Program-made: the position numbers and the translations under genes
Origin: Cordylochernes scorpioides
Lineage: Eukaryota; Arthropoda; Arachnida; Pseudoscorpiones; Chernetidae
Assembly (NCBI GenBank): GCA_030710605.1
Contig: CP092877.1
Location: forward strand, 42,082,406-42,146,405
Direction: 5' to 3'
DNA length: 64,000 nt
The notes under the pieces: generated by a model
Seen by the model: the letters and a program-made list of their open reading frames with translations, nothing else
Database searches by the model: none
What the model was told of the DNA's origin: nothing
Shown here: positions 1,714 through 56,302 of the stretch, piece by piece
Position numbering within the stretch: the first letter of the stretch is position 1
Layout: every line of letters begins with the position of its first letter

Positions 1714-1771
1714 TGTGATGATTTTTCAGGATGCTTTAATGACCAATTTTTTTTTTTGGTCGTTGAGGTAC

Positions 1772-1825
1772 AGCTTGCACCACGCTGATGAGGGCCAACA
1801 GCCCGAAACGCGTCCGTGGTTAGCT
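1772..1825 (+). ncRNA. Type I hammerhead ribozyme (intact core)
   Basis: Core CTGATGA is at 1785-1791 and GAAA at 1805-1808. Stem II is GGGC/GCCC around loop CAACA. Stem I is ACCACG (1779-1784) with CGTGGT (1815-1820), then a TGC/T internal loop and a further AGCT/AGCT helix. Stem III within one unit is only two pairs, but ACGCGT is palindromic and would form a six-pair helix between two copies. Predicted cleavage follows C1814 in the GTC triplet. All core residues are present. Confidence 0.8.
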
Positions 1826-2114
1826 TTTCTTGATTAATCAAGAATGGGTATTTGGCCAATTCTGGAATAATTAAAAATCAACGAGAATAGTTTATATTTA
1901 TTCCGATAGATGGCGTAAGCCATTAGCAACTTTCAGTTGCACGATAAGGAGATGCCTTTCTCTTAATTTATGCACCTTATCCCAGTAAAATATTACATTT
2001 GTACTATTTTTCCACATTGTGTAGCTTTCTCACGCAATTCTGGCCTTAACTACCCGTTTCATGATTTTTCAGGAAGCCTTAATGACCAATTTTTTTTTTT
2101 GCTCGTTGAAGTAC

Positions 2115-2168
2115 AGCTTGCACCACCCTTATGAGGGCCAACAGCCCGAAACGCGTCCGTGGTTAGCT
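2115..2168 (+). ncRNA. Hammerhead ribozyme, degenerate copy
   Basis: This has the same architecture as the copy 343 bp upstream. The core reads CTTATGA instead of CTGATGA at 2128-2134, replacing the essential G5, and the last stem I pair is lost. Stem II, GAAA (2148-2151) and the palindromic ACGCGT remain. It is probably catalytically dead. Confidence 0.75.
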
Positions 2169-2362
2169 TTTCTTGATTAAACAAGAATGGGTATTTGGCC
2201 AATTCTGGAATAATTAAAAATCAACGAGAATAGTTGATATTTATTCCGATAGATGGCGCAAGCCATTAGCAACTCTCAGTTGCACGATAAGGAGATGCCT
2301 TTTTCTTAATTTATTTACCTTATCTTAGAAAATTTTACATTTATACTATTTTTTCATATATA

Positions 2363-2545: not shown

Positions 2546-2860
2546 TGTTTTGCCAATAGATTTGGCCCAGCCACATTGCCAGCAAAACACCTCTTTGGTA
2601 GATTGTGAAGATTCCATTGGATCCCGTGTGGATCTCATGGAATAAAGTCCGCCCTAGACTGACGAGGGCCATTAGCCCGAAACCATGGTCTCTAGGTGGA
2701 CGCTTATCAGTGTGCCAAAGTTGGTGTTGTGGCTTTGTCACCGACCCAATGCCGCTAGTTGCGGCGACGGTCAATAGATGGCGTCAGTTTCTGAAGTTTA
2801 TTTTGACGGGAGAGGAGACCATTGCTTCCATGGATTAATTTCTTCCCGGCAAATTTTCCA

Positions 2861-2862
<2 letters not shown>
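2546..2862 (+). mobile_element. Second hammerhead-bearing repeat, single unit
   Basis: A unit of about 315 bp lies between the LTR fragment and a (TA)n tract. It shares the hammerhead plus a downstream GATGGCG block with the 1714-2352 dimer, but is otherwise divergent, so it is a different subfamily. No protein is encoded. Confidence 0.5.
2647..2701 (+). ncRNA. Type I hammerhead ribozyme (intact core)
   Basis: Core CTGACGA is at 2659-2665 and GAAA at 2679-2682. Stem II is GGGC/GCCC with loop CATTA. Stem I is CCTAGA (2653-2658) with TCTAGG (2691-2696), then a GC/T internal loop and GTCC/GGAC. Stem III is ACC/GGT closed by AT, and ACCATGGT is a perfect palindrome that would give eight pairs in a dimer. 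Predicted cleavage follows C2690. Covariation of stems I and III with the 1772 copy (different bases, same pairing) supports real structure. Confidence 0.85.

Positions 2863-2900
<38 letters not shown>
2863..2900. repeat. (TA)n microsatellite
   Basis: About 18 TA units lie directly against the gypsy-1 3' LTR. This tract makes the target-site duplication of gypsy-1 unreadable. Confidence 0.9.
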
Positions 2901-5400: not shown

Positions 5401-8400
5401 TTATATATATAAATGTAGAAATGGCTGGGAAGTTTGAGGCGGTATAATTCGGAATTGTTGCGTCTCGGAAATATCTGGAGTCAAATGTTTGAATTCACTG
5501 AGATATACATCTTGAGACGTTCGCTGTGGGTTTTGAATAAATCGGATTTGTGGAGGTGTAATGTACAAAACATTCTCTGTGTAATATTTTAATTTATTGA
5601 CATGTATGGTGTCACTGTCTCTATTGAGAGGTTGATTGGGGCGAACTATTCGAACGACGTTGGGTGAGATTATTTCAATTATTGTGTATGGTCCAGTATA
5701 ATATGGTGCTAATTTACCTGTGTCGGGATGTCTATAATTTTTGACCAAAACAAGATCATTCACTTCGAAATGTGGTGTTCTGTGCTACTTATCAAATGTT
5801 TCTTTATCTTTTTTATGCTTATTTTGGGTAGAAGAGCGTGCTATCTCTCTATCTCTAGTTATTTCGTGGTATGGATTAAGATAAGTTATTAGATCAGGGG
5901 GGATAACATTGAACATTAAGTAGGTGGGTGGAAAACTTGTGACAGAATGGGGCGTGTGATTATACGTCTGAGTGACGCGTTTAACTAGTTGATTCCAGGA
6001 AACTTTCGGATTTTCTAGATAAGCTAGTCTGAGTTTGCCTGTAATGGTGGCATTTAAGCGTTCTATTAAATCGTTTGCTTGTGGGTTATTGCTGGTGGTG
6101 AGTAGGGTTGTATAACATGTGTTATTAGAAATTTACGGAATTTTTCTGAGGTAAAAGCGGGCGCTCTTTAAGATAACAGATGTTTTGGAAATCCTTGTTG
6201 TAGTACAGTCTTGAGGGTTTGAATGTACGTTAGGGTACTGGTGGACTTCGATGGAAAGGTCCAAGCATATCGCGTTAAATGATCCACTATTACGTGTAGA
6301 TATGTCTTGGAGTGCCCATATTTCGAAAATCCAGCTATGGTATCTATAGAGATTAAGTCGAATGGTTGTTGAGGTGGTGGAATTTGTCCGAGGGCACCAT
6401 AGGGTTTACCTTTGGGTCTTTTAATGATTTGGCATGTGTGACACGACCTGACAAATTTTTCTCTAGATTTAGATATACCTTTCCAGTAGTACTGGGTAGT
6501 AATTATGCGGGTCATCTGAGAGATGCCTAGGTGTTTATTATCTTGGTGAACTTTGTTCATTAGGGTATGTTTCAGGGATTCGGGAATTATTATTTTAGTT
6601 ACACCTTTTCGGGTAATGGTATGTAAGCCGTTTGTATCAATGTTGAAGGGGGATGTTGTTGGTTGATGCTGCTTTATAATATCAGCACTGATAAATCCTA
6701 CAAAGGGGTTTCGTGACAGTAAATCTTCCTCGTACTGTTGGCTGCCTTTGAGGTAGTGGATTTCATAATTATAGGTAGATAGTCTCAGGCTCCATCTAAA
6801 GAGTCGGCCTGAAGGATGTTTTATAGTTTTAAGCCATTTTAAAGCTTGGTGATCTGTGTATATAGTGAATTTTATACCGGTGAGGTATATTCGGAATTTG
6901 TCTACACTTTCGACGATGGCGAGGCACTCGAGTTCAGAAACGGTGTAGTTTCTGTGCTCTAAGGGCGCGGCTGAAACATTGTACAGGATGTACTTGTCCG
7001 TCTGGATGTACCTGTTTGAGTATGCCGGCGATCCCTTGGGTGGATGCGTCGCAATAAAGGCGGCATGGTAAACCGACTTGATACAAGTGTAGTACTGGTT
7101 TACTGGCTAAACTCTCTTTGAGAGTGGTGAAAGCTTGTTGACAGTCTGAGTCCCAAATCCATTTTACATCCTTTTTAAGTAGTTTATTCAAAGGTTCTCG
7201 TAAGCGGGCATAATCTGCTATAAACTTATTATAAACGTTCACTGCTCCTAAAATGATTGTAGTGTTTTTTGATTGGTAGGTGGTTTGATGGCATTTATGG
7301 TATCAAGGTTGCGTGTCTGTGGCGCATAAGTACCTGCGGTAACAGTGTATCCTATGAAATCTATATTTGTTTTAAAAATGAACATTTATTATAATTGATT
7401 TTGATGTTTTCGTGTTGACACACCGTTAGAAATTGTTGTAGGTGTTGTAGATGATCCTCTAAGGTGTCAGAAAAAATAATGAAATCGTCGAAGTAATGGG
7501 TAACAAAATTTATTTATATTTTTGCATGACCTGGTTTATGGCACGATGGTATATATGTGGCGAATTTTTAAATCCGTACGGAAGTCTACAAAATTCGTAC
7601 TGACTATATAACGTCACGAAAGCTAGTAGATTACGTGAGTTATGTTCAATTTCCACTTGCCAATATGCGGATGCTATATCTACAGAAGAGTAGTATTTGA
7701 CTTTCGACAATTTATCAAGAATATTTTCTATTAAAGGTAAAGGATGTACGTCTGGAGCGATGATGTCATTGAGTTTTCTGTAATCAATACAGAAACGTTT
7801 CGTTTTGTCACTTTTCGTAACGAGAGTTATTGGACTGGCATAAGGTGATACTGATGGGGCAATGATTCCATGTTGGAGCATTTGCTCTATTTGGGTTTGT
7901 ATTTCTTGTTGGTCGTGTAGTGGCACTATATATGGGCGTAATGCTATTATTTTATCTGTGGTGGTATTGATTTTTATCGGTGGTATGTTCAATTGGGCAC
8001 ATTGTATTTGTTAGTAGAGAACACATGCGATAATTCATATAGAATTCGGTGAAGTTTGTGTGGACAATGTTCTAACTGAGTTGCCGCATTAGAAGGTATA
8101 GATAATTCAATATCATGGGCAGGAGATATAGGGGGTGCTACAACAGTGGGGGAAAATATTGGGGCAGGATCCGCCACATGTAAACAAGACTGGTTGGAGG
8201 GGAGGGTGGTAAAAATAGCTGTTTCCCTCGGTTGATTGGGACATAAATCCTGTTTGCGCTTGGTGAACTTATAGACATTTGTTGGGAGAGCATCATTCTT
8301 CATATAAATTTGGAGATTATTAAAATCTATAATTAATTTAATTATTTTAAGGGTATTAATAAATAAAATACCAAAAGGTAGTGAAGCTTCTACTATAAAA

Positions 8401-11579: not shown

Positions 11580-12280
11580 TCTATATATATAAAAATGAAT
11601 GTATGTATGTGTCTGTCCTTTATGCCTGACCAAACCACTCATTGGAACGCTATGAAACTTTGGGAAGTTATTTAGTATAGAACTGGAAAGGTTTCTGAAA
11701 AATAATTTCTTGAATATCCTTAGAGTTATTTACAGATTTGTAGATTAAACTCGCAAGCAGCGCCCCCATTGCGACGATGATAACAAGTTTTTTATCTATA
11801 AGTTTTATTATTACTAAGTTTATTATCTTAAAGATTATATATCAAAAGTAAGATTTTCTACCTATTAATTGCGCACAAGTCAAAGTTAGCTTCATTATTT
11901 ATCTACAACATATATATTGAGAGAATAGATAAAATGATGATTTTGTAATGTAGAAAATTAAAAAAGACAAAATTCAGGATGACACGGCAATTTATTTGAG
12001 ACAAGAATAATGATACAATTCCAAGGCAAGATACTATTCCTTTAACTTACAATTACCGAGGGAACCAATTAATATTGATTTTATTCGACTTATCGAGTAT
12101 TTTTCAAGGGACCGGGAATAAATGTTCACTTTATCGAGAGATTCAAATTTACGAGTTTCAAATTATCAAAATATATCTATTAATTTTTTAAATAAGTTTA
12201 TAGAGAATTGTTTTAACAAATGTTCGTTAGATAAACCTTTACTCGGGTAAAACTCGGGCGAAGCCGGGTACATCCGCTAG
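11580..12280 (+). mobile_element. Non-autonomous Helitron (family 1), head-to-tail with previous copy
   Basis: Starts TCTATATATATAAAAATGAA at 11580, immediately after the CTAG of the upstream copy, and ends CTAG at 12277-12280 after hairpin CTCGGGCGAAGCCGGG. 701 bp. There is no spacer between the two copies. Confidence 0.85.
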
Positions 12281-44358: not shown

Positions 44359-44790
44359 GTAGGTACCTGCATAAACCATTGGAACTGTTGCAGGTGTAGG
44401 TACCTGAATAAACCATTGGAACTGTTGCAGGTGTAGGTACCTGAATAAACCATTGGAACTGTTGCAGGTGTAGGTACCTGAATAAACCATTGGAACTATT
44501 GCAGGTGTAGGTACCTGAATAAACCATTGGAACTGTTGCAGGTGTAGGTACCTGAATAAACCATTGGAACTGTTGCAGGTGTAGGTACCTGAATAAACCA
44601 TTGGAACTGTTGCAGGTGTAGGTACCTGAATAAACCATTGGAACTGTTGCAGGTGTAGGTACCTGAATAAACCATTGGAACTGTTGCAGGTGTAGGTACC
44701 TGAATAAACCATTGGAACTGTTGCAGGTGTAGGTACCTGAATAAACCATTGGAACTGTTGCAGGTGTAGGTACCTGAATAAATAGATTGA
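44359..44790. repeat. 37-bp minisatellite, 12 units
   Basis: The unit GTAGGTACCTGAATAAACCA plus TTGGAACTGTTGCAGGT repeats at exact 37-base steps from 44359 to 44766 with almost no variation (one GCATAAACC, one ACTATTG). Each joint contains CAGGTGTAGGTACCTG, a near-palindrome. The overlapping minus-strand frames are only the repeat read in three phases. Confidence 0.95.
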
Positions 44791-54660: not shown

Positions 54661-55821
54661 ATTTTTTTTATCGATCTGATAATCTAATAATCTGATTTTT
54701 TTTGGATCTCTCATCTTAATATTGAAGTGATATCCATCTTCTCCTTGCCAGAACAAAATGGGATATTGTAAGGCATCATATGAGCGATGAGTTTCAGATA
54801 CTCGTTGAAAGTTATCATCTCTGCGATGAATTACTATATCGCGGGAATTATATTCTTCGCCAACTATGAGGATTGCCACTTCATCTATTGTTGGTGCATT
54901 GAATCGCCTTTCGTGTTGACCTGCTGGTGTTTTGTCAGCTCTAATAACAACTACGTAATCATCAGTAGGCATTCGTTCGATGGCTATCTTGAACAGTCGA
55001 ACTAATTCGTTGTGTTGATCTAACAAATTTTGTAATGAAGACACAATTTCTTGATTTGTGCTGCTATTGAATCTACAGCGTTGATTAACTTGGTCATCGG
55101 TGTTTCCCATGAAATAAATTTGCAGAAATTTGTGATCTGAATCCGGCAGAGGTAGAAGTGATCCAACACGATGGCAAATTTGCCCTTGCACTTTAAACGT
55201 TGGCATGTAATTGTCCCGAATGATTTCTGTTGCACCGAACGATGTCATTTGAAAGCATGAATTGTACTTTCGAATGTTTCTCAAGAAATGCTTTGATTGG
55301 CTTGTTGCACCTGATATCAACGTTGATAAAGGTTCATGAGGTAAATGCTATTCGGGCAATTTCACTTTACCACCTGCGCAGCACATTCCTGGAGTCTCAT
55401 TCTTGAATTTAAACGCATCACAAAATTTGCATAACTTGTCCATTTTATCAATAACAACACTTGGATGCAGACTGTAATCATATTCAGCATCATAATGGAA
55501 CGCGGCCCGGTTCAAGTCAGCATGTAGTGTTCGTCTGGAGCGAACATTGCGTTCTCGATTGGTTCCCAACCGTGTTTCCCGCTGGGCAATTGATTCATTT
55601 GAGCGACCCTGAGCAGTTTGTATTCGATCGGCTTCCAACCTTGCATTTCGTTGTTGAACTGTCTCATTCGAGCGAGCTTAAGCAGTTTTTATTCGATCGG
55701 CTTCCAACCTTGCATTTCGTTGTTGAACTGTCTCATTCGAGCGAGCTTGAGCAGTTTGTATTCGATCGGCTTACAACCTTGCATCTCGTTATTGAACTGA
55801 TTCTGAAGCTCGTGATATCTT
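54493..55821 (-). pseudogene. Helitron protein N-terminal region
   Basis: The 23-residue repeats (about 55611-55800) are followed by the zinc-finger-like CKFCDAFKFKNETPGMCCAGGK at 55348-55450 and the Helitron_like_N region (FLQIYFMGN, CRFNSS, IFRRDDN-type HRRDDNFQRVSETHRSYD). A TAA near 55791 and the lost start codon show that it is dead. Confidence 0.88.
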
Positions 55822-56302
55822 TTTCGATCATCGTTTTATCTAGTGAACATTTTTTCCCGGTCCCTTGAAAAATACTCGATAAGTTGAATTGAATCAATAT
55901 TAATTGGTTCCCTCGGTAATTGGAAGTTAAAGGAATAGTATCTTCGTCTTTAATTGTATCATTATTCTTGTATCTAATAAATTGCCGTGTCATCCTGAGA
56001 TAATCTTACTTTTTATAAATAATCTTTAAGAAAATAAACTTAGTGATAATAAAACTTGTAGATAAAAAACTTGTTATCATCGTCGCAATGGTGACGCTGC
56101 TTGCGAGTTAAATCTACAAATCTGCAAATAACTCAAAGGATATTCAAGATATTCAAGAAATTATTTTTCAGAAACCTTCCCAGTACTATACTAAATAATT
56201 TCCTAAAGTTTCATGGCGTTCCAATGAGTGGTTTGGTCAGGCATAATGGACAGAAAGACAGACACACACACACACACATACATTCATTTTCATATATATA
56301 GA

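Follow-up and report, generated by a model that had tools for sequence, protein, structure and literature searches.

Retrozyme families of the pseudoscorpion Cordylochernes scorpioides: head-to-head arrays with two paired outer ends point to Penelope-type insertion

The closest described counterparts of the elements analysed in this study are the non-LTR retrozymes of Metazoa. As presented in the sections of PMC7229834 considered here, these carry type I hammerhead ribozymes within tandem units of approximately 170–400 bp, occur as multimers of low G+C content in genomes with co-resident Penelope-like elements (PLEs), and have target duplications of more than 4 bp when such duplications are present. 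The same traits are found in two repeat families of C. scorpioides, designated A and B, the target duplications being those of family A. Both families also share the weak palindromic helix III of the amphibian retrozymes. The hammerhead-bearing satellite repeats of newts and salamanders resemble them in unit length (approximately 330 bp) and in a weak palindromic helix III that favours dimeric cleavage, the mode described in the same sections of PMC7229834 for ribozymes of this kind; unlike these satellites, A and B are bounded insertions with arms joined head to head. The LTR retrozymes of plants are likewise non-autonomous and hammerhead-bearing, with a circular RNA proposed as the template (PMC4918200, in the part considered), but they differ from A and B in having type III hammerheads, LTR-type priming and 4-bp duplications (PMC7229834, in part). 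What distinguishes A and B from the retrozymes of PMC7229834 is that most of the sampled copies are inverted, head-to-head structures with two fixed and paired outer ends. The word "inverted" does not occur in the main text of that paper, and the portions of PMC11722881, PMC3846280, PMC7229834, PMC11167929 and PMC8490949 considered here contain no description of inverted or head-to-head retrozymes, which does not in itself establish priority. Circles and cleavage were demonstrated in PMC7229834 and are predicted for A and B.

The second relevant group comprises the PLEs. Poseidon of Anolis (PMC11167929) and Penelope of Adineta (PMC3846280), as described in parts of these papers, share with A and B two internal starts (or a "tail"), head-to-head inverted repeats, short target duplications and AT-rich targets. 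Poseidon also carries a hammerhead in its repeat (PMC11167929). In contrast to PLEs, A and B lack an ORF encoding reverse transcriptase (RT) and GIY-YIG domains, and their arms are often multi-unit. In work with a purified PLE protein, the enzyme cut both strands and extended them, showed a preference for AT-rich DNA and initiated reverse transcription at two adjacent internal sites, which correspond to the 30–40-bp tail; ribozyme mutants were still inserted in vitro (PMC11167929). The copies treated in the relevant part of PMC3846280 are bounded by inverted pseudo-LTRs (pLTRs), with an optional 31-bp tail on one of them and duplications of 8–10 bp. In the parts considered of both papers (PMC11167929, PMC3846280), the origin of the tails and of the inverted repeats is not settled. 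PLEs have been named among the candidate mobilisers of retrozymes (PMC7229834, PMC7761336 and PMC11722881, each in part), and according to the consulted part of PMC7761336 no conserved motif reveals the retrozyme partner.

The DNA analysed (the window) is a stretch of 64,000 nucleotides from contig CP092877.1 (assembly GCA_030710605.1, positions 42,082,406 to 42,146,405); the genome that contains it comprises 2.62 Gb in 24 contigs. A first-pass annotation of the window, made without database searches, had placed a tandem dimer with one hammerhead per 343-bp unit at 1714–2352 and had read it as a retrozyme. An element is located there, with limits closer to 1718–2359. It is composed of two head-to-tail units on the plus strand, with a period of 343 bp and 93% identity across 300 aligned bases: unit 1 (1718–2060; 343 bp), which is 95.6% identical to the family A reference unit (locus L009, 1108–1445), and a partial unit 2 (2061–2359; 299 bp), which is 92% identical to it. 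The family A unit has 338 bp, and the window unit 1 is longer by five T residues within a T-run. Unit 2 ends at unit position 295, i.e. at outer-end site 2 defined below, and the same end was found at other loci. The left flank of the element (1400–1717) is a repeat with several copies in the window on both strands, e.g. at 11580–11859 and 55968–56302.

The type I hammerhead of unit 1 (1772–1825, plus strand) has an intact core, and all of the core residues named in the first-pass annotation are in place: CTGATGA at 1785–1791, stem II at 1792–1804 and GAAA at 1805–1808, with the predicted cut after C1814. Stem I is formed by 1780–1784/1815–1819 and 1772–1774/1823–1825, and stem III is the palindrome ACGCGT (1808–1813), again as previously noted. 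Stems I and II are present in the centroid fold, and the stability of the single-strand fold of this ribozyme is not above that of shuffled sequences (z −0.54). The covariance-model check proposed earlier produced a match of Rfam Hammerhead_HH9 to 1769–1834 (E = 6e-4 in a 1.6-kb search), although its 26.5 bits lie below the gathering score of 52; at gathering thresholds, the window yielded two tRNAs only and no hammerhead. The counterpart in unit 2 (2115–2168, plus strand) is defective: its core reads CTTATGA (2128–2134), and the unit alignment reveals a further change at 2127, in stem I. C2157 of this copy matches C1814. Because the second core is broken, the window locus alone should not excise a unit, and the predicted 343-nt RNA, cut at C1814 and C2157, is not supported for this copy; the reference unit would give 338 nt. 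The family A copy of the window is one-armed and decayed.

When both strands of the window were scanned for the motif, two core-intact hammerheads emerged, the one in family A and another, with its core at 2659, which was absent from the first-pass annotation. The latter belongs to a family B copy (2546–2865, plus strand), unrelated to family A. It comprises positions 1–306 of a 319-bp unit (at 2560–2865), preceded by the last 14 bp of the previous unit; it terminates at site 2 of family B (306), beyond which lies (TA)n. Its type I hammerhead (2647–2701, plus strand) contains stem I (2653–2658/2691–2696 and 2647–2650/2698–2701), CTGACGA (2659–2665), stem II (2666–2678), GAAA (2679–2682) and, as stem III, the palindrome ACCATGGT (2682–2689), with the predicted cut after C2690; the Rfam search gave no hammerhead match at 2647–2701. 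There is no complete stop-to-stop ORF of at least 110 aa in the window before position 5401, and the A and B units are non-coding. Since both window copies are one-armed, the form with two arrays joined head to head is invisible from the window, and the interest of the finding lies in the families, each with tens of thousands of motif copies, and not in the window copy.

With two mismatches allowed, the 30-nt core of the unit 1 ribozyme matched the genome at 22,163 places and the reversed pattern at none, which shows that the hammerhead is not a product of chance. The corresponding numbers were 21,399 for the family B core and 10,287 for the hammerhead core of a resident PLE described below (both with up to 2 mismatches and 0 matches to the reversed control), and a looser pattern that fits B and not A gave 16,351 genome matches versus 9. 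Among the full-length ribozyme copies of the fetched loci, duplicates included, the core pattern is kept by 162 of the 174 from family A and by 46 of the 50 from family B. Stem III is a perfect palindrome in all three hammerheads (ACGCGT in A, ACCATGGT in B and ACGT in the PLE), so cleavage between two RNA units would be favoured. The window repeats A and B belong to large retrozyme families of C. scorpioides. The earlier reading of the window element as a retrozyme is well supported by the type I hammerhead, the small tandem units, the dispersed insertions, the target duplications and the co-resident Penelope-like element.

The fetched loci, 40 of family A and 20 of family B, came from the top of the genome search rankings and are not a random sample; four of the family A loci (L012, L061, L066 and L069) are duplicates as judged by their flanks, which leaves 36 A and 20 B. 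Further tandem copies, for which a genome search had been suggested, were found in this sample, mostly as paired arrays in head-to-head orientation. In a typical copy, the units of the first array lie on the minus strand and those of the second on the plus strand (<<<< >>>>); the junction between the two is variable, and arm length ranges from below one unit to almost 15. Independent of the choice of loci are the exact motif matches on contig C1 (approximately 100 listed per pattern, counted by eye). Among these, opposite-strand neighbours no more than 1.5 kb apart were in minus-plus versus plus-minus order 8:1 for A, 9:0 for B and 18:0 for the PLE (35:1 in total).

The outer ends of the arms fall at two places in each family: unit positions 240–252 (site 1) or 288–299 (site 2) in A, 46 nt apart, and, in B, position 272 or 306 or their close vicinity, 34 nt apart. 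We scored 44 two-ended elements, i.e. 28 of family A (four of them split by a LINE) and 16 of family B; for L047, L072 and L074 the ends were read separately, as the automatic table had split these elements or added a palindromic match. Left out were (i) the one-armed L009, L027, L062, L048 and L049, (ii) the edge-cut L022, L025 and L065, (iii) the arm-truncated L071, L039 and L058, and (iv) the complex L026. The two ends are paired in a nearly strict manner in the sampled loci: 40 of the 44 elements have site 1 at one end and site 2 at the other, one has site 1 twice (L073), and three have an end elsewhere (L010, L077/L080 and L044). One of each in 40 of the 41 classifiable elements has a probability of 1.9e-11 if ends are independent (p = 0.5), and the left/right placement of the two ends is 20 to 20. 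With the three arm-truncated elements added (n = 47), the counts are 40 with one of each, 1 with the same site twice and 6 with an end elsewhere. An apparent third class of family A ends, at unit position 50, was rejected as mostly an artefact of match cutting; of the 20 loci fetched for this class, only L075 and L077, both of which carry a LINE, depart from the unit at that position.

The pairing of ends bears directly on self-priming, in which one cDNA would snap back and be copied, so that a single initiation would suffice for an inverted array. Such a process produces head-to-head junctions from one priming event and has been proposed, and favoured, for PLEs in the part of PMC3846280 considered here. 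It predicts the same start nucleotide for both arms and hence identical outer ends, but two different ends are present in 40 of the 41 classifiable elements, and the arms of L011, L016 and L018 differ from each other in length and in private variants. Self-priming is already disfavoured, and we regard it as very unlikely.

The sequences flanking the elements were compared with those of mismatched pairs. The flanks of 25 family A elements (24 two-armed elements and the one-armed L009) share 11.5 nt on average versus 6.5 nt for mismatched pairs, and at least 9 nt are shared in 20 of the 25 elements versus 17.8% of mismatched pairs; the shared strings include a few bases common to the element ends, and several of them are TA repeats. 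Target duplications of more than 4 bp are present in family A. The targets of family B are TA repeats, for which the comparison does not discriminate: at least 9 nt are shared in 13 of 16 elements versus 63.8% of mismatched pairs. Long inverted tandem-repeat arrays resemble foldback elements, and one could suppose that A and B are ordinary satellites, or foldback DNA transposons, that carry a hammerhead by chance. This supposition is hardly tenable in view of the bounded, dispersed family A insertions with matching flanks, the outer ends of the arms lying approximately 46 or 34 nt apart with no common terminal inverted repeat end, and the retention of the ribozyme core in most copies reported above.

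Comparison of the units within and between loci provided information on the template. Unit divergence in family A is 1.19% within the same arm and 1.25% between opposite arms, against 2.71% between loci; the respective values for family B are 0.96%, 0.80% and 1.63%. At shared polymorphic sites, the two arms of a family A locus agree in 95.1% of cases (32 loci), with a mean of 78.2% and a maximum of 85.0% in shuffled data (none of 2000 shuffles as high). The result is weaker for family B (17 loci), with 94.7% versus 86.3% after shuffling and 1 of 2000 shuffles as high. Since the two arms of a locus agree, a single template, or a small pool of templates, should have given rise to both; a similar agreement could arise if elements were inserted in cohorts.

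We also inspected 70 arms, entered by hand, that belong to 20 of the A and 15 of the B elements among the 44. The ribozyme cut site is crossed by 63 of them, and 53 are longer than one unit. The inner ends are not concentrated at the cut, as 1 of 64 lies within 5 nt of it in A (2.1 expected) and 2 of 34 in B (1.2 expected); their distribution is compatible with a uniform one in A (KS p = 0.46) and departs slightly from it in B (KS p = 0.047). Copying of a linear, hammerhead-cut monomer from an internal start would end at the cut; the template would accordingly be a circle or an uncut multimer. An uncleaved multimer would equally yield tandem arms, and the circularity of the template is presumed. 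In the plus arm of L018 (contig C2, 100370000–100375100), with almost 15 units, variants recur in a fixed order of approximately 3–5 units, which hints at a multi-unit (perhaps circular) template or at later rearrangement or duplication; period statistics of this locus were set aside, as short palindromic matches had contaminated them.

GIY-YIG matches are many in this genome. Of 17,015 candidates, 150 were scored, and four loci (L086–L089) were fetched, two of which, L087 and L088, are Penelope-like elements with the usual domain order. L087 contains an open frame of 708 aa with RVT_1 (6e-8) and GIY-YIG (6e-6) domains, and 2,260 of 7,988 scored proteins match it at E ≤ 0.001; the open frame of L088 has 567 aa. 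As a possible PLE partner, L086 (contig C1, 8987300–8991700) was rejected, because it has a 2-kb inverted repeat of another type, and L089 is similar; these two loci represent GIY-YIG-bearing repeats with inverted repeats of 0.5–2 kb, in which a motif scan detected no hammerhead. The repeat of L087 contains a minimal hammerhead motif. No match was obtained for L087 in Rfam at E values of up to 0.5, and its hammerhead is assigned by motif and position.

L087 is the only PLE insertion with both ends read, 2.1 kb of its interior being outside the fetched sequence. Its arms are head to head, its outer ends correspond to positions 361 (left) and 328 (right) of the repeat, an offset of 33 nt, and its flanks share the 12-nt string ACATTCAGAAAT. 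This is the same anatomy as that of the retrozyme copies. L088 also has an end at repeat position 328, and only these ends (361 and 328 of L087, 328 of L088) were used; the end "1–361" of most PLE repeat matches was rejected, since it marks where the query leaves its own element and not the ends of the copies. A and B have no significant homology to the PLE repeat (the best match to L087/L088 has 17 nt, E about 0.01). The link between the retrozymes and PLEs is therefore anatomical, with one PLE insertion behind it, and it points to, rather than identifies, the mobilising element.

Given this likeness, A and B might themselves be the pLTRs of Penelope-like families, and the arrays pLTR-only derivatives of them, which would leave the insertion mechanism unchanged. 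Tandem, head-to-head repeats with hammerheads are known from PLEs (PMC3846280 and PMC11167929, in part), and the resident insertion L087 has this anatomy. On the other hand, the units of the two-ended elements adjoin and leave no space for a PLE ORF, except in the four LINE-split arrays; the ORFs of three of these (L079, L080 and L082) are gag-like or LINE-type, and a single arm may have almost 15 units (L018). We judge this origin unlikely.

The LINE-split arrays L079–L082 were considered as autonomous partners of the form pLTR-ORF-pLTR, and were rejected on account of these gag-like or APE/RT/RNase H ORFs and because the arrays keep their own ends. In L082 (687–5307; contig C7 from 58287700), a gag-like frame of 378 aa precedes a frame of 1172 aa; L079–L081 represent shorter, gag-bearing relatives. 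The open 1172-aa frame with APE, RT and RNase H domains, residing inside a family A array, could suggest that an APE-type LINE such as this one is the mobiliser, all the more so as the 3′ end matches on into the unit in 25 of 40 scored copies, the query included. In the remaining 15 of these 40 genome copies, the LINE stops at the junction or no more than 6 nt from it. In the family A arrays the LINE is placed at unit positions 36–56 with overlaps of 8–17 bp. In L082 it interrupts a unit, 8 bp of which stand on both sides (unit positions 1–49, then 42–338), which looks like a later insertion, and the outer ends of this array (297 and 243) are unaffected. We judge the element of L079–L082 to be a LINE that inserts into the unit, perhaps with a preferred target in the retrozyme, and not a partner; a composite element is the less likely reading. 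Two fixed internal starts with a tail are not known from any LINE. These are a trait of PLEs (PMC11167929 and PMC3846280, in part), and mobilisation of A and B by such a LINE is very improbable.

The reference units of both families and the PLE repeat each contain complementary stretches, so that a hairpin can possibly enclose site 1: (i) GATAAGG/CCTTATC in A, with a loop of 25 nt (shuffle p = 0.007), (ii) CGGGAG/CTCCCG in B, with a loop of 30 nt (p = 0.010) and (iii) CTGGCCG/CGGCCAG in the PLE, with a loop of 30 nt (p = 0.006). The stems have 6–7 bp, and the shuffle test was designed after they had been noticed. In the minimum-energy folds of B and the PLE, other pairings take the place of this hairpin. 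Transferring coordinates from the reference unit, the possible hairpin of window unit 1 lies at 1943–1981 (GATAAGG 1943–1949/CCTTATC 1975–1981), with site 1 at approximately 1971 and site 2 at approximately 2017, that of unit 2 at 2286–2324, and that of the family B copy at 2807–2848, with site 1 at approximately 2831 and site 2 at 2865 (all on the plus strand). The sequence ATAGATGGCG, upstream of the start-site hairpin, is common to A (unit position approximately 184) and B (approximately 215), which are otherwise unrelated; it is found in the window at 1906, 2249 and 2774 and is possibly a protein-binding element.

Taking these observations together, we consider it probable that A and B are non-autonomous animal retrozymes inserted by Penelope-type, two-strand and two-site reverse transcription of a circular or multimeric RNA. 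The process might proceed as follows. The transcript of a tandem array would be cut by the type I hammerheads, probably as dimers, at unit position 92/93 in A and 131/132 in B, into units of 338 or 319 nt, which would be ligated to form circles. A Penelope-like enzyme (RT and GIY-YIG) would recognise the RNA hairpin and make a staggered break at an AT-rich target. Both target strands would then prime reverse transcription, each at its own internal site of the RNA; one of these sites lies in the hairpin loop, the other 17–36 nt past the hairpin. Each enzyme would follow the template along its length or around it, in many cases for more than one pass, and head-to-head joining of the two cDNAs would give the <<<< >>>> form with a short duplication of the target. 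We are evenly divided on the more specific version, in which a single circle is copied by two Penelope RT subunits, primed on both strands of one staggered break, with different starts around one hairpin.

If this is true, the pairing of one end of each kind would mean that a dimeric enzyme holds one RNA and that its start sites are assigned to the two target strands, and a single geometry would explain both the Penelope "tail" and the inverted repeats. The insertion scars and the possible hairpin with two start sites, both common to the resident PLE, point to Penelope machinery. Start sites did not differ between strands for the PLE enzyme in vitro (PMC11167929), so the rule of one of each is not predicted by that study. 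The rule of one site per arm is nearly strict in A and B, whereas the tail of PLEs is called optional and the considered parts of PMC11167929 and PMC3846280 do not state such a rule. It constitutes a quantitative prediction for Penelope integration, testable in other retrozyme-bearing genomes.

A Pfam scan of 20 of the larger ORFs of the window detected Gypsy-, Copia- and Pif1-type domains. Closely similar copies of a 69-bp tandem repeat are located at 1–343 (5 copies) and 55595–55799 (3 copies), and a further array at 44359–44782, comprised of 11.5 copies of a 37-bp unit with 99% matches, is probably young.
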